Source: Brachycybe producta (taxonomy: Eukaryota > Arthropoda > Diplopoda > Playtdesmida > Andrognathidae). Taken from it: 64,000 nt of DNA. The DNA lies in assembly GCA_036925085.1 (NCBI GenBank), contig JAUPFP010000013.1, forward strand, positions 2,605,001-2,669,000. Direction: 5' to 3'. The first letter of the stretch is position 1, and each line of letters starts with the position of its first letter. Of this stretch, positions 3,610 to 61,503 are shown piece after piece. The notes under the pieces are model-generated. The model did not search any database and was not told the DNA's origin. It saw nothing but the letters and a program-made list of their open reading frames with translations. The position numbers were made by a program, and so were the translations under genes.

Positions 3610-3633
3610 CACAAATTTTGATGTAGTTTGGCT

Positions 3634-3884
3634 TAGAGACCTACATAAAGCCCATGGGCCGGTGGGCTTGGGCTGGCATTTATATGTGAAAGGCCCATGG
3701 GCCTGGTGGGCTTTGTAGGCCTGGTGGGCTTCATGGGCTTTGTAGGCCTGGTGGGCTTCATGGGCTTTGTGGGCTTTGTGGGCTTTGTGAGCCTAGTGAC
3801 CCTGGTTGGCTTTGTGGGCTGGGCCTGGTATAAAGTCTCATGGGCTGGGCTTGGCATCAATTTTTTACACAATGTAGGTCTCTA
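3634..3884. mobile_element. hAT-type MITE with GGGC-repeat core, copy 1 (8-bp TSD)
   Basis: Terminal inverted repeats TAGAGACCTACAT and ATGTAGGTCTCTA bound 251 bp. The element is flanked on both sides by the identical octamer GTTTGGCT (3626-3633 and 3885-3892). An 8-bp duplication is the mark of hAT-type transposition. The core is a degenerate array of GGGCTTTGTGGGC and GGGCCTGGTGGGC units, which in one frame reads as a Gly-Phe-Val repeat; that frame is a by-product of the array, not a gene. No transposase is present, so it is non-autonomous. Confidence 0.9.
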
Positions 3885-5326
3885 GTTTGGCTATTTTCAA
3901 ACTGTCCTAAAATATTTATTTTGAAAGATGTCGTCGTAAAATTATTTCTTACTCAGAGGTGGACTGGAAGAAAGAAATGGCTCGCAAAAATTGTTTATTT
4001 TAATCTAATAAAATCCAAAAAAATGCTTAGAACTCCACTACCTTGATTCTAATTTCACGTTTGACTGCAATATATGTGTCATATTTTTCTATACGTAAGA
4101 AACAAGCGTAGCCAGCCATTTTTTTTAAAGTACACGACCCAGCGTAATAATTTTTCTTATTTCCTACATTTATCTTCAATAAAAAAATGTGTCATTTTTG
4201 GTTTTTGGATATTTTCTACTGCTTAAAAAACATTAGTTTTCTATTCATTTTTTGCGCGATTTGTTTCATTATGAAATAATCCGGCCCTCAAACTATGTGG
4301 CCCATCAAGAAAATGCCCGATTGCTCTATAGACCAGTCTGCCATTGTTTTTATGTGATTCCTTCAGTCTTTAAATGTGTAATGAATTTTGAATTTTTTTC
4401 TAAAAATCAATTTTTTTAACTAAAAGCAACGAATTTTTAGATTCAATTATCATAAATATGCAATATTAATGTAAAATAATCTAGAATTGAAACTCTATGT
4501 GAAGATTATCTTGAAAAAATATTAAATCTTAGAAACGTGTTCTACTTTCTTTTTTTTTTTTTAGATCTAATTACTTTTAGACAGATTTGTGGATTTTTCT
4601 CTTAGAAATAAGATCAATGAAAAAATGTTGATCCAATTTCATAATAAGTACATTTATCAAACTCATATGGGCCCAAACATCTAGAAATATATCTAATATG
4701 TCTGAAGGAAAAAGAAAACAACACGCAAACGTCTTTTGATTATAATCGATCGAATTACATATATTCTCATACTATCTATAAGGGCAATTTTAACATTAGC
4801 CATTGTGTAAATTCGCTAAACAATTTGCACAATACCGTCAGCAACAAGCCAATTTAGATAATGCTGCTAATGTGGAAGTGCAGCAAAATGACTGTAAAGT
4901 CTAGTTTCAATTGACTTATGATTATGAAATAATTTCAAGATTCATTTGAAACTAGAAGACTAAAAACGAAGGTGATAACTTCTTATAAGAGAAATTCCAC
5001 AGTGACAACATTTACGATAAAATATTTATCAAAATTTGAAAATGTTGAAATGTTTACATTTTTTTTTTGGATCAAGAGGAATGTGGAAAAAAAAAAACGG
5101 ATGAACGTCTTTTTGAAAATCGCATAAAATGTTTATTTTTAAAGATATTTAATCATAAAAAATATTCCGTGATCAAACCCAGCTATTGACCATAAGTAAA
5201 TAATTAATATTAATGTGATTTTATAATTTTAAACCTTTGCATTTAATGGGTAAATTTCTTAGACATTTATATTTAGTTGATATATCTATGGAGGAGGGGG
5301 AGGTCTCTTACTTCGAACTCTTTTAA

Positions 5327-22800: not shown

Positions 22801-25800
22801 GTAAACGTATAGAAATACAATTACACTTTCTAATTCAGATTGAATTTCACATTTCTTTTCGTTTTTATGATTACTTTCGTGAGTTTTTTTGTCAGACTTT
22901 TCTCTATGTTTTATCAGAATTTTTAGGTCTTAACATTTAATTTTGTTATGTACATGTACATTGTTTGCAAGTTTATTTTTTTCTATAGAATTCACCTTTG
23001 TATACAAAATAGAATGTTATTTAAAAAAAAAGTCTGATAATTTTGAATGGCATTGCGAAATCGTCTTTTCAAGTAGCCAAAGGGCCTTAAAATCAGATTA
23101 TTTTCTATTAAAAAAATATTTTGAGTTACTTTAAAGACTTTCATCAAATTTATAAATAATTATCATTGTTGTAATTTTTTTCGGAACTTTAATTTTAGAT
23201 ATAAATGTTATTTGGCGTTTTCTAAAATAAAATATAAACCATAAGCTATCTATTTTTATAATAAAAAATACATGAGTATATGTTTTGGTCTGAATTCGTA
23301 AAAAAATATTGATTGAATAAAAAAATTTCTCATCTTTTTTATGGCATTTCTACTCTCTTACATACTAACCCCAGATCCTAAAAAAAAATCTTTAGCACCC
23401 CCATTGGGTTCAAGCTACCTTTAATAAAAAAATTTCTTTCTTTTTCTGCCTTTTATATGAACCCAATATATATGTCTTTAAAACGGAAGTTGATTTTAGG
23501 ATCCCATATAATCATGTAGCTGATAACACAATGAACTGATTTACCATAAAATTATCCGAAAAAAAAAAACCTCAAAAGAAGCTTAACAAAAAATATATAT
23601 AATTTGCAGTGTCATATAGAAATATTTTTTGTTGATTTTATTTTATGTTGCTCAATAAGAGACGAATTTTGAAAAAAAATATATATATATATATATATCC
23701 TTTCTTACTAAACAACAATAATATAATTAATAATAAATGAGGAACGCACATACACAAAATATTAAAACAAACCTCTCAATGCAAAAACATAAATTTACTA
23801 ATGTTGACGTGTAAATGCATATATGAGTTTTAATGTGCATTATTTATTTTGAGCTTCTATAGCTGCCCATAATTTAAATGCTAATAGCAGCAGCCACTGG
23901 CACATTTGCATTTAGTTCTAATTTCAGGGGGGAGGGGGCATCCTGGTCTATGTTTTCACATATAAAAGAAGAACCCATATCTAACAACAGTATTTATCTC
24001 TTCTTATTCTTAATAGAATTTCTCTTTGCTTTTTCTTCTTCGTCTACTTCTCTGAATAACATAAATTATTTATTTTAATTATAAAGCTGCTTTTAGTCGA
24101 GGTCTACTCTTTTTTTTTATTTAAAAGATAGGCTATGGGTGTCAACATAAATTAAATTTTCTTATTTGTTTGTTTTGGTCCATCTAACTGATAAAATTAA
24201 TCAGATTATCATACAATTATTCTCTCATTTACAATTTTATCTTTAACAAATGATTTCATTTCGACCAACATATTTTCATAGTGACTGACATCTTTTAAAA
24301 TAGTCAGTTTTTGAAACAAACTAACTTTGAAGCGGCGATCCACACTGGGACAGACAAATCGTAGGTAACTAAGTGACCTACACTTTAGAAATATAGGCTA
24401 CTCAGTGACCTACACTTTAGATAGCTATTCAGACAAGAACTGTGGGTTGTCTGAATGGCTATCTAAAGTGCAGGTCACTGAGTGACCAATGATTAGTCCT
24501 GGTGTAGGTCACTGAGTGACCTATGATTAGTCCTGGTGTACGTCACTGAGTGACCTACATTTCTAAAGTGTAAGTCACCTAGTGACCTACGATTAGTCTG
24601 TCCCCTTCATTATAGAAATAGTGATACAGAAATGTTATAATTACATTATATCATTTCTAAATAACAGTTTCTTGAAGTATTTCGTCTTCTCTGTTGTAAG
24701 CAAATTATCATTTAAGATGTTTTAACAGTAGTTACTGCAAAATATGCCAATTCAGTAGAACTTTGGTCACTCTGCATTTAGATTCCAACGAATAATAAAA
24801 AATTGAAAACCTTTTAGAAATTAGAAGAGGAAATAAATTACCTAAAATGGTTTATAAACAAGCTAACTTTCGAACACTTGTTTATTCTGAATTTCAGGAG
24901 AAAAATTAAAGAGAAACTAGAATGGTAGCTTAATCAATTATTGGTGTCCTCATGTTGATATCTTTCAAAATAAACTTTTTATATAGACAAAAAATTAAAA
25001 AAAATATTTTCAAACTCACATACAAAGCTATTCATATTACACCAGAAAGACAGAATATGTAGAGTTTGAAAGGCATTTTACACCTTAAAACCACATTTAC
25101 AATATTTTCATGTTGCTATCTTTAAAACAAGCTTTTAATTTGGCCATTTTAAATTTTAAATTTTCGTTTTTCACTTCAAGTTGGTCCCAAATAAGAAAAA
25201 AATATCGCCTCATAAACTACATTCATTTTCAAATAATCATTAGAAAGCTAGTTTTTCAAGAAATGGACATAAAAATTGGACTTTAGTGAGTCAATTACTC
25301 GTCTATTATTCAATTTATACATTTTTTAAAAAAGCACAATAACTACAATTACAAATTTACTATTATATGAAGTAATATGACGTTTTTACTTTTATAAAAA
25401 TGTTTTCCTCAACAAAATAAAATTATATTCTACTTTTCTTGCAACAACAAACTCCTGTCTCTCACTCTTTTTCTCCCCTTTTGTTACAGGACAATCAATA
25501 CAATGTAGTTGTCACAAATTTTAGGGTTGAGTTGTTATAACCCGTTCTTCTAGTAAGTACTTGCTTAGAAACCATTTCTGTAGCTACTTCTACTACTGCT
25601 ACTGCTATTACTACAATACAGACATAACTAGAATCTATAGAAAAGTGGCTATAGAATTGCATCAAGGAAGACACATTTTTAGAAACAACTCTACCATTGA
25701 ATTTATGGTAGCCAACCACAGACACAAACACACTTTACTTCTTTTCAGAGACTACAGTATATTATCCCTTTTTTATCCGGCTGCTCGTTTCTATATTGTT

Positions 25801-31984: not shown

Positions 31985-32105
31985 GAAAAAAGCCCACCAA
32001 GCTCATAAAGCATATAAAGCCCATGAGGTCCACCATGTCTGTGAGACCCGTACAGCCCACCAGAATCATGATGACCACCAGGCCCACAATGCCCACTGGC
32101 TTTTT
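31985..32105. mobile_element. GGGC-core MITE, degenerate copy without ends
   Basis: AAGCCCATGAGGTCCACCA, CAGCCCACCAGAATCATG and CACCAGGCCCACAATGCCC match the core of the 3634 and 43996 elements, but the TAGAGACCTACAT ends are absent. Confidence 0.65.
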
Positions 32106-34079
32106 TTGAAAAATAAAATGGCTAGCCCACTGGCTTTTTTTTTAAATCAACAAGTGATATTAGCAAATATTTTCTAATAAATTTCTTAGATAATTTAGAT
32201 TTTATAATTCGCCAAAAATTACATGTGTTTTTTTCCTGAAATAATTTTTTCGCCGCACCAAATATGCCTTTTTTATGTTTTAGAATATTATACATTTTTA
32301 TTATTCATATCAGGTTTAAAGACCTTTATTCTCTTTTTCAATGAAATAAAAATTTGGAATTATTTACTAGTAAATATTGAAACATAATAATAATAATGTA
32401 CATGTATATCTGCAATGGCTGAGACCAGACATGATGCGAATTCGTTTCGCGCGGTTATTCTAGTACCGTAATTCAGAGTGCAATAAGTATTAAAATATAC
32501 TGTCCTTCTACTAATAAAATTGCATAACCTATTTATGATTCCTATTTTTAAAATTCGTTTGAAAAATAGCCTACATGCAAATTGCCATAGACCGATTCAA
32601 AAACGAACAAAATTGGATTACTAAAAATGATTCCTTTCACTAAAAAATATCCAATAAACATTTAAAAACAAATTGAGTGCGTGTTTTAAGACATGATAGA
32701 TCTACTGATAGAATTATACCACTCCAGTGCAACTCGTATGATTATAATTTTATACAGAACCGTAGCTAGAGCAAGGCGAATGGAGGTAACCAGCCTTGAG
32801 CGCAAAGTTCAGTTGCTCAGAAATAAAAAGCGTAAAATCACAAGTATGATAATACTAAAGGGGCGCCAGTTTTAATCTTGCCTCAGGCGCACACAAAAAC
32901 TGCAATTTTTTTTTAAGTATAAGTCCATGGCGTTCCAGATAATCTTTTAAAAATTAGTTATAAAGTGTAAAAGAATTAAAACTACTAAAAAAAAATTGTT
33001 TGCATCAAATTTTTTAAAATTATTCTAAAAAAGAAACACAAATGTGATGTTATAAACGTGAGTGAATTTTAATTTAATTTATACATTATGCTATCATTTT
33101 TTTTCTTTTATTTTTACGAAATATTATGACAGATAAAATTACATTTTTTTCTGGTTACTACCAAAAATAACTTCTGGCACAGTTTGCATTTTGCAAGCCC
33201 TCTCTGTAAATGATTGTACATGTGTAGGAACAGCAGCAAGCTTACCGATTAAGATATGTTTCTTATTTATTTTTTTTTGGGGGGGAGGGGAAGAGGTAAT
33301 ATTGAGGCCGACTATATCAAATATACGCATGCGTAGTTTTTTTTTCCATATAGGCATGAGAAAAGAAACAAAAAAACTTCCATGTTTCTGAAAGAATGCA
33401 GTAGTAGATAATATAAGTACATCTTTTATGTACAACCAGGGAAAACGTTTGCATTCTATCTCTTTCATATTATTCTGCTCTTTCTTTTCTTATGTTTTGC
33501 TTCTTATTCTTCTTCTTCTGCTTCTTTTTCTTCATGTGTTTCTCTCTATCTTTACTTGAGTTTTAGAAGAAATGCAAAAAACAAATACCTGACCAAAAAA
33601 AAACACTACATCTTGCAAAAACAACAAAATTACATTTCATAAAAGTTGCCATTTCGTCCAGTCTGGATCTTACTCCTCTCTCCATAAACACAAAAACAAA
33701 AAAAAAAAATGCAACTTAATTTCGAAAATTGCCTGCAGATTTATTTATTTTCTTTCTATTTGCTAGCATTCTTATTCTTGAAAGAATTTTTTCAGTTTTA
33801 GATGCAAAATCGAAGAAAGAAACTTGATACTTGAAGTCCAACTTAGAACTTCTCAATAGAGTTTCAATAGTACTTAAAAAAAATTAGGGGTTTTCTATGA
33901 TGTAATACTTGCATCGCCCTTTGAAGAAACTTGTGACTTCAAAGGGACTGACTAAAAAAATTTAGCATTTGTGCCATTGTTATCGAATCTTGAAAACATT
34001 TATTATCCCTTTTTTATCAGACAAAATAACACAATTCTTAATTTCTCGATATCACAATCTGACATCACAAGCTTCATTT

Positions 34080-42005: not shown

Positions 42006-43995
42006 CATACTCTATACCGAGACTTTTATTTGAATAACTAGTTCTGTACAATAAGCCTCATTGAAAACTTAAGAGGTTATCAGTATAACTGAGATTAGGT
42101 ATTACGCAATACCTGATATAGTCGTTTAACACAATGCGTTTCCTTTTCGTTTACATTGATTCATTTTGCACACAATTAATTATATTTGAAATGTGAAGTG
42201 CAATGAGCACTCAAATATACTGTAAGTAGGCTACTGTCCATCAACAAATAAATTTGCATAATCTAGATAAGATTCCGTCTATTTCGTTTTTAACAAAAGA
42301 CTGTCAATAACCTACATGCTAATTAGCGATCCACTTTCGTTCGTTTTTAATCTTCGGAAGAAATTGTTATGCAGGAAAAGAATGCATAACATGGCATTGC
42401 TGTAAATCGTAACCAATTTCTTAAGAAGAAAACGAAGATCTGCATTTCAGAAAAAAGCAACAATCCAACCATCCAAAAATGCAATGTTAATTAATTTTAA
42501 AGTGAAGTCACATCACTCAACAATTTGTAGAAAACTTGATATAGTTTTACGAGCGGTAATGTCAGGGTAGTGCAACAAATTTGTGTGTTTTGTGGAGAGC
42601 TAGATTTTATGAAGCAAATGTTATTATTGCATTAAAAATACAGTATAGAAAGGCTTGTATATAATATACATCTTTTAAGTTTCGGGTCTTTTAGTATGAT
42701 GGTTTATAAAGTTTTACCCATAAAATATCACTGATCAAGGCAACTAGCATGCAAATAGTGGTATGGTGGTAACATTTTCAAGTGTCTCAAGAAAATTTTT
42801 CGATTAATGTGAATTCACCTTAAAGGAGCAATAAAACATGGCCAACTTACATACAAGGTGTACAGGCTAACATACATGTACATTGTTATAACATTTGCCA
42901 AAATATATGCTTAAATAATTGTATAATCGTTGCACAACGAAGATTTTTAAGGTCTCCTATACATCCTCATCTCCTCGTCTCCTCATACATTACAAAAACC
43001 TATATTATTTCTAGAGATCAATTTCATAAAAATACCACAAAACCTTATTTTTTGTGCTCTTCTAAAAAGGAAATTTCAAAGAAGAAGAAGAAAAAATGCT
43101 TTTTATATATCGAGTTGTTCTCTACACAATCAATAATTTTATTTGTACAGAAAATATTGATGCTGTCGACAATTGAAATTACTTCAGAGAGTACGTTTCC
43201 ATAACGATATCGGTTTCTATTCTTATATTCTAAATAAGAGACCTTTAAGTCATGCACTTTATTTATTCTTTTGTTCATTTTATTTTTCATGATAGAAAGA
43301 GTTGTACTTAGTTACTATCATCGTCCAAGCAGAAATTATTTCAAATGGACCTAAATCCAATTTTTATGGTAAATGAGGGATTATTATTATTATTATTATT
43401 AGTATATTACAGTAATAAAGTGTTGGTCTATAAGAATCTAAAATCGATTCCTCTATTAAGACTCATTTTTATTACCTAAACGTATACAATAACATTTAAT
43501 TATAAATGTATATAACAAAATTGTTGACTGTAAACAAATAGGTTTCGAAATAACATCCTAATTACATAAAACATAAAAGATAATTTTCATAATTGAAATC
43601 CATATGGGTTGCAAAACATATTCTCCATTTTTAAGAAAAACAAAACAAAACTAAAATGGTTAAAATGCTAATAAACTCATATGATTACACCATATTTAAC
43701 GTACAGTGGATATCAAGTCCATTGGGATAACTTGGAATTTGATAGAAAAAAAATATTATAAAACGTACAAATGCTAAAAATTTAATTTAAAACAAAATTT
43801 TATAAATTCTATTTGGTTAAAAGTCTCGAAAGAAATGGTAACGTAAGAGTAAAATTAAATTAAATGATGGTTCGAGATTAAGATAATAGTTTTGTTATAT
43901 TAATATTAAGGCATAACATAATATACATACTTGGTGACGCAAGTAAAACGAGTCATGTTTAAAGATAAATATATCAAGAAACTGGTCATTTGTAC

Positions 43996-44179
43996 TAGAG
44001 ACCTACATTGAGTAAAAATTTGAAGCCCAGCCCATGAGACTTTATGCTGGGCCTAGCCCACCAGGCCCATAAAGTCCACAACGCCGACGAAGCCCACCAG
44101 GCCCACAAAGCTCACCAAGCTGACAAAGCCCACCAGGCCCACAAAGCCCACCGGCCCATGAGCTTTATGTAGGTCTCTA
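43996..44179. mobile_element. hAT-type MITE with GGGC-repeat core, copy 2 (8-bp TSD)
   Basis: TAGAGACCTACAT and ATGTAGGTCTCTA bound 184 bp, flanked by the identical octamer ATTTGTAC (43988-43995 and 44180-44187). The core is AAGCCCACCAGGCCCAC-like units in inverse orientation relative to the copy at 3634. Repeat number differs between copies. Confidence 0.92.
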
Positions 44180-44655
44180 ATTTGTACCACAGGTTATTTG
44201 ACTTAGAAACTAAAATCAACTGCATAACGCCATATTGAGATACTGCCTGGTTTTAACAATGCATTATGAATGCTGCATTTCGGCTGTTTTCCCTCCACCA
44301 CAGGCCATCATTGTTGCTTTCAGAGTACTTTTAACAAATTCAAATTATAAAAGCTAAACATTTGAAATTTAAGATATACGCAAATAATATAGAATAAAAT
44401 AAATTGGTAAAGAATTAACAATTGTAGAAAATAACGTTTCAAATAGCCGTTTTCCTGAAGTATAAGTGCTCTGTAATTATCATAGTTTAAATCATCATAG
44501 TTAAATACATTTCTAAAATGTCTCGTCTAAGTGAGTTTTGCATCCAAGAAACCTATTAATTACGAAACGCAAGAAACGATTTTTAGGCCCTTCGCATACA
44601 TATATCACGAGTAGTTTATCAAGTCAAAAACGGCTACAGGAGGTAGGGTAGTGGT

Positions 44656-54556: not shown

Positions 54557-57500
54557 GTAAAATGTGTCTCATTACATAACTTACGTAAATAATCCTCGAA
54601 ACCATAACACGGGGAGCCACGAATTTACTGAACAAACAAGAACATAAATTTAGCCTCTCTGCAGAAATATGAGAAATTCAATGAACAACCTGTAAATCTA
54701 TTTAATACATACAACCCATGTTGTTGGCAGTTGGTAAAAACCTTTTGGCTCCAGACACTAATTGGCCCAATGTTGCAAAATTACATTTGGCCCACTTAAT
54801 GTTAACCTAAAAAAATTATAATATCAGTCATTTATAACAGGTTTAGGCGATCGTTGGGCCATCGCGAGTACAGCCAATAATGGGACCAACTATCAAACAC
54901 AATGTTGGCCGGATAATTTGGCCAACATCTTTATTATAAACGCCAATGGTTGGCATTACGTTGGTTCCGTATTATCATGCTGCTGCCTGGGAAGGTACAC
55001 GTGCTTTTGGACAACTTTCACCTTTGGAGGGGTTTCTAATCAAAATGTTTACTAAACACGTTATGTAAAGTGCACCTTTTCGGTATTATACTTACATTGT
55101 AACTGGGTGTCCTGAAATGTTTTTTCTTTCTTTCTAGGAATAGGCTAAATAGGTGTTCAGTGAATTGCCTGTTCAATAAATTCTGTAAATGTGTAGAACC
55201 TTTTTATTGTATTTTTCTGCTATTTTCCTATAAATTTCTACAATTTTTCTATAAATTTCTACAATTTTTCTATAAATTTCTACAATTTTTCTATAAATTT
55301 CTACAATTTTTCTATAAATTTCTACAATTTTTCTATAAATTTCTACAATTTTTCTATAATTTTCTACAATTTTTCTATAAATTTCTACAATTTTTCTATA
55401 AATTTCTACAATTTTTCTATAATTTTCTACAATTTTTCTATAAATTTCTACATTTTTTCTATAAATTTCTGCAATTTTCCTGTAAATTTCTGCAATTTTC
55501 CTGTAAATTTCTACAATTTTCATAGAAATTTCAGTATTTTCACAATAAATATCTGCAGTTTTCCTATAACGTTCTACGATTTCGATATATATATTTTTGC
55601 AGTTTTCAACAAATGTCTGCAATTTTATACACTTTTACACAATTTTTTTTTTTATCAATTTCTGTAATTTTTCAGGAAATTGATGCCAGTATTCAATAGT
55701 TTGCTTATGAATTTCTCGGCAACCTTTCATACAAATTTGTGCCATTTCGGTGTTTTTTATAAAACTACTTTATAAAACAGATAAACTTACACCGATTTAA
55801 CTAATTTGATTGTTATTTAAAGGTTCAAAAATTGAAATAAAGAAACTGCATCAACTGAACAACGATATGAACAACATTGTCATCATTGGTGCTCTGTTTA
55901 AACAGATGGAATTACGTCCTAGTATCTTAAAGGAAGTCAGCGAAGAGGTAATAGTTTCATCTTCCGAGTGTAATACAATTTACCTTGATGCGCTTTTTAT
56001 ATTATTTATTTATTCTTAAAAATGTTTCTTTTTAAAGGTATATCGTCTTGAAAAATTATGGTTTATTAATAAAACCTTGAAATTTTTTCCTAAGTTGCAT
56101 CCAAAAAAAAAAAAAGCTTCTCGTCGTTTTCCCTTTAAAAAAGGTAACTTTTGATTTACTATTTTTTTTACAGCACAACTTGATGCCACAACCTGTTACA
56201 AGTAGTTTTCACAGCGACGATGACAGACTAATTCTAGAAGACGAACTTCAGAGAATCACTTTAGTTGGAAATATCAATGTTCATAGTTTTGTAACAGGTA
56301 TATTGAGGTTAAGTAGTAAAGCATTTCGAAGAAAACATTTCGAGAGAGACTTGTTTCGTGTCACAGGTGTCGTCGTTGCCGTTTTCGGCCACGAAACTGG
56401 TAACAAAGAAGATGGAAAGTTCGAAGTTGAAGATGTTTGCTTCGCATATCCCAGAATACAACTTCAGTTGCCAGTTTTTGAAAAGGAGAAGTTAGTTTTA
56501 ATCGAATTAAATTTAACCAACTTAATAAGATAAACGGTTTTAATTTGTTTCTTAAAAGATACGTTGTTCTATTATCTGGACTTGGATACGGCAACAACGC
56601 TGGTTCACTATTCAAGATCCAATTGCTGGTTGATTTGCTAATCGGTTTGTTAGGAGACGAATGCGAACAGGAAGCAATGGCCAAGATATCGAGAATTATC
56701 ATCGCAGGAAACTCTCTGAGCAAAACAACTCGGGATAAAGATTTCACGAACAAAGTAAGTTAATCTCAAGAAGAGAGAAATAAGATTTAACTACGTGTTT
56801 TCTAGTCACACTTGGTTGAAAATTTGGATTTCGGAAATATCGTCGTGAAAATATTCTCATTTGGCCGTTATTTCATTCTTTTATTCTTTTATTTTCAAAT
56901 AAATTGTAAATTTCTTATAAGAAGTATTGTCGTGTTATTTCTCAATGTTATCTTTTTTTCTAGTCAATCAAATAAAATGATGCATTGTTTTCTTAGGCAA
57001 AATATCTGACTAAAAATACGAGAGCGGGAACAGTTGATGCGATTAAGAGTTTAGACGAAGTTCTATATCAAATGGCCGTACGTAAACAATCATTAAAAAC
57101 TAGATCTCGACGATTAATTTAAACGTTATCATACTATTTCAGACTAGCCTCGAAGTGGATCTGATGCCCGGAGAATACGATCCTTCGAATCATATCCTTC
57201 CGCAACAACCGTTACGTCCTTGTATGTTTCCAAAAGCATCGGTATATACGTCGATGCATGGAGTTACGAATCCATACGAAGCTCTTATCGGAAACGTAAG
57301 GTGAATACTCTCGATATGTTTACTCGTCGTGTGCCTAAAAAACAATGAAACTCATGTTTTTCTTTTATCTTCTTTAAAGATTTCTCGGCACTTCGGGTCA
57401 AAATGTGGATGATATCGCACGTTACAGTCGTTTGAATGATCGTTTAGAAATTCTTGAAAAGACTCTCGAATGGGGTCACATTATACCAACTGCTCCAGAT

Positions 57501-60377: not shown

Positions 60378-61013
60378 AATTTTTCCAGACACCACCAAAC
60401 AACAGATTTTTCCATGGGCTTATTTTTTTTTTGACATTTGATTATTTAAAGCAATTTTATATGTTGTCATCGTTAAATTTGAAAAGTAATAAGAAACATA
60501 AAAAGAAAACCGTTTTCGTTTTCGTTTTTTGTCTTTGTGAACGTCATTACGTAAAAATAAGGGTAAGGAAATATGTCTAATAATAATGTAAAGGGACTTG
60601 TTTGTTGTCTTTGATTATTTTATGCATATCTAATTCTCACGAGAACATGAATATTTTCTTTTCTCTGTTGTATTTTTTTTCCCCGTCTGTCTCACGTTGC
60701 CTTTACTAGAACTCCTAAGTCAATTTTGGTTTCTTCTTTACTTTGTCAGGTTTACATCATTTTTTTTTCTTGCAAATTTTTTTTTCTGTTCGAAACAGAC
60801 GCATAATTTGAATACATTGCCGTTTCCTTGCGTTCATTTCTTTTTCTTAAAAAAAAAAGAAAAATAGTTTTTCGAGGCTTTGTGTCTTGTTGCGTTTATT
60901 ACATTTAAAAAAAGTGAACAAAATCTAAAATTCGTTTTATTTTTTAAATTTTGTTTTACTCTCTTTTCTTCTACACTTGCCCTGCATAAAATAAACTGAT
61001 GTGTATAAAAATA

Positions 61014-61186
61014 TAGAACTACATTGAGTAAAAATTTGAAGCCCTGCCCTGCCCAACCCAGCCCATGAGATTTTATGCTGGGCCCAGCCCACAAAGCCCA
61101 CCAGGCCAATGGGTCTTTAACATAAATATGCTGATCCAAGCCTAGCCCAAAAGCCCACCATCCCATGGGCTTTGTGTAGGTCTCTA
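61014..61186. mobile_element. hAT-type MITE with GGGC-repeat core, copy 3
   Basis: The right end GTGTAGGTCTCTA is intact. The left end reads TAGAACTACATTGAG, lacking four bases of TAGAGACCTACATTGAG. Flanks do not match, so the duplication is lost. The first 60 bp closely follow the copy at 43996. Confidence 0.8.
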
Positions 61187-61384
61187 ATTTCCACACTAAA
61201 TGGTTCACAAGTTCACATGCTTACCAAGAAAAGAAACTACCCCATTAACGGCTCTAATATGTTTATTTTATTGATTGGTCAGTGAGGAATATGTTATACT
61301 TTTATTAATGTGTGAAATAATATGTGGTTCAGTTCTATATATTTGTAAAGAACCCCAAGCGAGAAGTGATCAAACACGCCTTCC

Positions 61385-61503
61385 AAACCCATGATGCCCA
61401 CAAAGCCCACTAGGTCCATAAAGCACACCAGGCCCATGGGCCTTTCACATAAAAATGCCGGCCCAGCCCAACCCATGGGCTGGTGGGCGAAGAGACCTAT
61501 TAT
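61385..61503. mobile_element. GGGC-core MITE, copy 4 (left end missing)
   Basis: In inverse orientation it follows the copy at 3634 through GGCATTT-TATGTGAAAGGCC and GGCCTGGTG, ending at GAAGAGACCTA. The opposite terminal repeat is absent. Confidence 0.75.

Follow-up and report, generated by a model that had tools for sequence, protein, structure and literature searches.

Two insertions in a 64,000-nucleotide stretch of the Brachycybe producta genome (contig JAUPFP010000013.1, positions 2,605,001 to 2,669,000; hereafter the window) carry a G+C-rich tandem array between short inverted ends, which raises the questions of what kind of element they are, how it was moved and whether it spreads its array as a seed of satellite DNA. 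Based on the results below, they belong to a genuine family of small DNA elements that has been copied repeatedly, most probably with the help of a borrowed enzyme of the hAT type. The whole reading, a non-autonomous hAT family served by a transposase acting in trans, with arrays expanded by slippage and no growth into satellites, is one that we hold with high confidence.

Copies in the window and across the assembly

The first-pass annotation had described two copies whose 13-bp inverted ends match exactly and which are flanked by perfect 8-bp duplications (TSDs), and both were confirmed (Table 1). It had also described a strikingly G+C-rich core; each of these copies has a G+C content of 54% and the window 31%. 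The tandem array that it placed in the core was found as well, though with the unit corrected to 9 bp, the periods of 18, 27 and 36 bp being higher orders. Three further copies, decayed or without ends, had been proposed at 31985, 61014 and 61385. The last two are not separate copies: they are rather the left and right arms of one long copy with a middle of about 190 bp between them. No TSD was found for this long copy (61012 to ~61500). At 31985, what is left of a family member is a decayed array with no recognisable end.

Table 1. Family copies, arrays and duplications in the window (TRF, tandem-repeat program output)
Feature	Position	Strand	Evidence or remark
TSD GTTTGGCT, left	3626..3633	.	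Flank of the 251-bp copy
Short copy, 251 bp, left-type end at 3884	3634..3884	-	Exact 13-bp TIRs and TSD
9-bp array, 27-bp higher-order unit	3698..3820	-	TRF: 2.9 copies, 94% matches at 3707-3785
TSD GTTTGGCT, right	3885..3892	.	Flank of the 251-bp copy
Decayed array remnant, no recognised end	31985..32130	+	Unit words cluster at 31991-32125; best end match has 5 mismatches
TSD ATTTGTAC, left	43988..43995	.	Flank of the 184-bp copy
Short copy, 184 bp	43996..44179	+	Exact 13-bp TIRs and TSD
9/18-bp array, 36-bp higher order	44055..44158	+	TRF: 2.7 copies, 86% matches at 44055-44151
TSD ATTTGTAC, right	44180..44187	.	Flank of the 184-bp copy
Long copy, left arm	61012..61186	+	Outer end 61012-61024 (2 mismatches), array, inner end 61174-61186 (1 mismatch)
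Long copy, middle, ~190 bp, no array	61187..61377	+	Inner boundaries with 0 mismatches to the genome-wide patterns at 61179-61206 and 61378-61405
Long copy, right arm	61378..61500 (end approximate)	+	Array words at 61396-61483; right end lost

The 13-mer end TAGAGACCTACAT occurs at four exact places in the window, which are the four ends of the two short copies; at up to 3 mismatches, 34 sites were found vs 15.5 in shuffles. A search of the window against Rfam gave no match at the gathering score. Among other features of the window are an exon matching the claudin family (E 1.2e-5, just below the Pfam cut-off) and a match to a subunit of DNA polymerase delta. Another, palindromic repeat consists of units resembling GTAGGTCACTGAGTGACCTAC and lies at 330-560 and 24360-24596, the latter with a period of 32-34 bp; it is possibly a further small mobile element. 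At 55214-55582, a 21-bp A+T-rich unit is present in 17.6 tandem copies, and several reading frames are open there.

In the assembly (295,300,729 bases, 442 contigs), the 13-mer was found at 706 exact places (349 + 357), compared with 4 (3 + 1) for the reversed pattern, which excludes a chance origin of the ends. The first 100 of these places, all on contigs C1 to C4, were listed; among them are 21 pairs of a forward and a reverse end separated by under 1.5 kb. Twenty of these pairs, chosen by position alone, were analysed, the 21st (C4:2611494) being left out. An exact 8-bp duplication flanked 10 of them, one with a single mismatch 4 and one with two mismatches 2, while the remaining 4 pairs had no TSD (at least 4 mismatches). 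Thus, as sampled, 14 of 20 pairs bear the 8-bp duplication expected of other genomic copies at no more than one mismatch. At lengths of 4-7 and 9-12 bp, exact duplications were found in none of these unselected pairs.

A wider set was formed by adding to the position-chosen pairs the window copies, single ends and 20 loci of the long form on other contigs; loci without a pair of ends at no more than 3 mismatches per end and 4 per pair were excluded. Thirty pairs in it had both ends exact, and their TSD was exact in 20 and had one mismatch in 4 (24/30 in total), with a mild bias, since at loci offering several pairs the one with the best TSD was taken. From this material, 37 distinct copies were chosen by a TSD with at most one mismatch, so that their own TSD-length count is circular and was not used. 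The locus L031 was dropped because its duplication is identical to that of L030. The duplications of the 37 copies gave the target consensus gTTnnAAc, with T at position 2 or A at position 7 in 53 of 74 chances (p=2.3e-11), and in mispaired flanks, taken as a control, agreement at one mismatch or fewer occurred in 19 of 1332 cases. The elements are 121-1220 bp long, and every one of the 37 is richer in G+C than its own flanks (medians 0.475 vs 0.332). Past mobility is shown by the duplications.

Some loci may reflect local events. The copies at L010, L030 and L031 (C1:4784947-4842928) lie within 58 kb and have the flank GTATGAAG in common, suggesting that a single insertion was multiplied by segmental duplication. 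Three short copies at L048 (C2:11308000-11316000; right ends at 11312315, 11313433 and 11315201) were perhaps carried by a local tandem duplication. One family copy (L020:301-1757) has a ~32-bp array, TTTGGCGTTTGTTCCAATTGGCGCTTATTCAG-like, in its body.

The long form and an older subfamily

The window holds both architectures of the family. The short form is represented by 11 copies of 121 to 251 bp, and the inner end of the long form was present in 20 of the 37 copies. The long form consists of a left arm resembling a whole short element, a middle, a second array and a right end. The left arm closes with an inner TIR copy that differs at a single base (GTGTAGG instead of ATGTAGG in 19 of the 20 copies), and the middle measures 180-198 bp in 17 of them. 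The arms are more variable (left 143-313 bp, right 87-506 bp), the largest right arm, in L021, including unrelated sequence. Genome-wide, the long form occurs at about 200 places: searched at up to 3 mismatches, its left boundary was found 199 times and the right one 218 times, with no hits for the controls. Of 20 long-form loci, 15 are flanked by an outer duplication with no more than one mismatch, and 5 are without it. The 3' ends of the 11 short copies resemble the inner and the outer right end of the long form about equally. Bearing on whether the left arm moves alone, ATTTCCA follows 88 of 130 exact inner-type ends. In the long copies inspected, both arrays run in the same direction.

The sequence next to the exact ends is not uniform. 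Ends followed by C or G were found 19 times (control 1), by A and a non-A 14 times (control 2) and by T and a non-G 60 times (control 1). Twenty ends of the last class were sampled as a TTT subfamily, and the continuation TTTGT was present in 15 of them. These loci are badly decayed: at one of the 20 (L088), a partner end was found together with a TSD of one mismatch or fewer. Their decay suggests that the subfamily is the older one.

In the first 180 bp of the TTT subfamily, the most enriched 5-mers were AAGCC, AGCCC and GCCCA, at 22 to 28 times their level in the sequence further on. At least two of the counted words occurred within 180 bp in 18 of 20 loci (just two in L096 and L101), and none in L086 and L098. 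GCCCA is oriented away from the end in 59 cases and towards it in 9, the same direction as in young copies, while the 9-bp register is weaker (23 of 75 spacings vs 820 of 1678 in young copies). Since the same words in the same direction are found in both, the vocabulary of the array appears to be an ancient component of the family.

The nine-base array and its fate

Both TRF and autocorrelation gave an array period of 9 bp. The array motif is AAGCCCACC/AGGCCCACA..., and its GCCCA word also fills both subterminal stretches; the arrays are most likely expanded subterminal repeats. Runs of 3 to 20 units were found in 35 of the 37 copies, which places a tandem array between the ends of nearly all of them. 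Higher-order units differ by copy: 27 bp (94%) at 3707 in the window, 36 bp (97%) in L011, 31 bp (100%) in L022 and 18 bp (97%) in L067. This comparison between copies suggests that arrays change within single insertions.

To what extent the array travels with the terminal repeats was assessed where the array and end listings overlap (n=46 array loci). An exact end lies within 1 kb of 34 of them, with a chance expectation of about 0.004 per locus, so that, as sampled, the array does travel with the ends. Among the other 12 array loci, 9 have an end-like site that differs at no more than 2 positions (that of L059 possibly being internal), L057 and L058 have one with 3 mismatches, and none was found at L052. 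Because 11 of these 12 hold an end-like site, most arrays that lack an exact end resemble decayed copies.

The first-pass annotation saw in this carriage a route for spreading satellite seeds, which would mean that arrays are released from the elements and amplified into long blocks. The capacity of arrays to expand is indeed evident from the higher-order repeats, and satellites have arisen from other transposons that carry internal repeats, according to the parts of the sources available (PMC4079207, PMC9659126). However, the longest array register among 134 loci (L009-L142) has 26 units (234 bp, with one skipped unit per step allowed; L056), and the 16-bp array unit has 559 exact occurrences in the 295-Mb assembly (control 0). 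None of the 12 array loci lacking an exact end is a long block, nor was any such block seen in the loci L009-L142, although long blocks may be missing or collapsed in the assembly. The spread of satellite seeds is thus not supported, and we regard it as very improbable.

A further question is whether the array, as a part of the mobile element, does anything. A minisatellite born once by subterminal slippage and carried along as neutral cargo is an explanation to which we give about even credence. It agrees with the free variation in array length and with L018 and L070, which have no run of at least 3 units and yet bear TSDs. Against it, the older subfamily, with a different leading sequence, still retains the vocabulary and its direction, and pure neutrality might be expected to lose the vocabulary in some successful lineages. 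This retention and the presence of GCCCA words in both the subterminal stretches and the array are what would be expected if the array were functional, that is, if it offered multivalent putative transposase-binding sites, captured the borrowed transposase better and was for that reason kept in old and young subfamilies. According to the available parts of a study of Hermes, a hAT transposase, the DNA that hAT elements require can extend well past the TIRs, and in Hermes the BED domain binds subterminal repeats (PMC10368747). On the other hand, short copies with few units have moved too, two of them with perfect TSDs (L027, 121 bp; L012, 153 bp), and we consider a functional array possible but tentative. 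Somewhat more doubtful is the specific proposal of a putative self-expanding recruiting cluster, in which the length of the array, tuned by slippage, would set how well the MITE competes for hAT transposase. A resemblance of GTGGGC to GTGGC, formerly given as the Hermes site, was dropped as a candidate: since that site, as argued in the portion of the study available, should be re-assigned to AAGT (PMC10368747), the likeness is without weight.

Superfamily, mechanism and known relatives

The TIR tips of hAT elements follow the consensus (C/T)A(A/G)NG, and the tip TAGAG, with TAGAGACCTACAT at both ends, fits it. The target consensus gTTnnAAc resembles nTnnnnAn, the preference of Hermes as given in the part of the study available (PMC10368747), and with the ends and the 8-bp TSD it indicates a non-autonomous hAT family. 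The elements are short, they have inverted ends in high copy number, and they appear non-coding, since by eye no transposase-like frame was found between paired ends in 43 loci. The length and motif of the TSDs, the tip of the TIRs and the number of copies thus all support the initial assignment to hAT-type MITEs.

An autonomous partner with the same ends, which the first-pass annotation suggested looking for, was sought in part. A genome search with the hAT dimer domain (PF05699) gave 350 candidates, of which 150 were scored and 149 matched. No listed exact end is closer than 10 kb to any of the 63 matches on C1-C4; the smallest distance is 10,944 bp. The end was absent from the 3' flanks (700-800 bp) of 40 of the 149 matches, where the best site had 3 mismatches (L102, L109), which is at chance level. 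No partner was found within this scope.

Two candidates were rejected. Transposase-like pieces were seen in one of the 43 loci (L044), near an exact end at C1:17234900 (L044/L049), but by eye they belong to a separate hAT-like element (L049:1051-3288) with its own ends TAGGGTGGTCC, the duplication ATGTCTAT and broken transposase pieces; the locus was rejected for this reason. A Pfam search with three of the L049 pieces, at E up to 1, gave no hAT family. The other candidate, C12:2102782 (L122, L102), is a decayed 4.2-kb hAT with 20-bp inverted ends, 19/20 alike, and it contains the motif CIAHTLNLVV (L102 with L122). Its ends, TAGAGACGTGCAA/CAGAGACGTGCAA, are like the MITE end at 10/13 and 9/13 positions, a likeness no better than chance for the size of the scan, and its outer duplications disagree. 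As a real hAT, it nevertheless indicates that ends of such a general look belong to hATs in this genome.

Duplications near 8 bp are also made by P, Merlin and Novosib elements. A family of one of these superfamilies would agree with the result that no transposase with matching ends was found among the scored hAT matches and the 40 flanks. The target motif matching that of Hermes, the TAGAG tip, which fits that of hAT elements, and the hAT gene ending in TAGAGACGTGCAA/CAGAGACGTGCAA in the same genome argue against it, and we consider such an origin quite unlikely.

Based on the hAT assignment, we suggest the following course of events. A hAT transposase encoded elsewhere in the genome would bind the 13-bp ends and excise the element, which would be pasted into 8-bp gTTnnAAc sites, the site being duplicated. 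The array would derive from subterminal repeats that grew through slippage or unequal exchange, and single insertions, probably after they had been made, would expand their own arrays into higher orders of 18, 27, 31, 36 or 54 bp. The long form moves as one unit between its outer ends and may have originated as a near-dimer.

Helentrons are not known to have inverted ends with 8-bp duplications, both of which are present in the family described here. Like this family, the Cg_HINE Helentrons of oyster, in the part of the report available, are non-autonomous elements that disperse short central arrays (PMC7492417). As far as the available portions of the sources go, the mar and BuT2 MITEs of Drosophila are likewise non-coding hAT relatives with 8-bp TSDs (PMC3517528, PMC3942097), and the BuT2 MITEs were amplified by transposition with a distinct TSD per copy, as here (PMC3942097); no array is mentioned in these portions, in contrast to the 9-bp array body and two-armed long form of the present family. 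Mobile non-coding elements that disperse an internal array, as here, include Xmix/Xstir and miDNA4 of Xenopus and pearl/HindIII of bivalves (PMC9659126). In the accessible part of that review, these are assigned to Tc1-mariner or Pearl or left unassigned, and are sources of satellites, whereas the present family is of hAT type with no satellite seen; the word hAT occurs there twice, both times in references (PMC9659126). The two arms with internal tandem repeats of the long form recall the foldback element Tetris of Drosophila virilis, but in that element the terminal inverted repeats enclose the tandem repeats, which are some 220 bp long and gave rise to kb-size arrays, by the part of the paper available (PMC4079207), while the arrays here are short and run in the same direction, which is not a foldback arrangement. 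The BrickBuilt MITE of Porphyromonas gingivalis also has a minisatellite inside a MITE and differs in being bacterial, with a 23-bp unit and 19 copies in one strain, according to the available part of its description (PMC4596501). In the portions available of the open-access literature searched on tandem-repeat and hAT MITEs, no hAT MITE with a minisatellite body was found.

The family is a new example of a known sort of element and not a new mechanism. As it stands, it provides a clean case of a hAT MITE that disperses a minisatellite, with no satellite seen. Its hundreds of insertions, with known ends and duplications around a changing minisatellite, make array turnover measurable copy by copy. 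If it is true that the array is transposase-binding DNA, the family would illustrate a way for MITEs to generate the sites that recruit their transposase.
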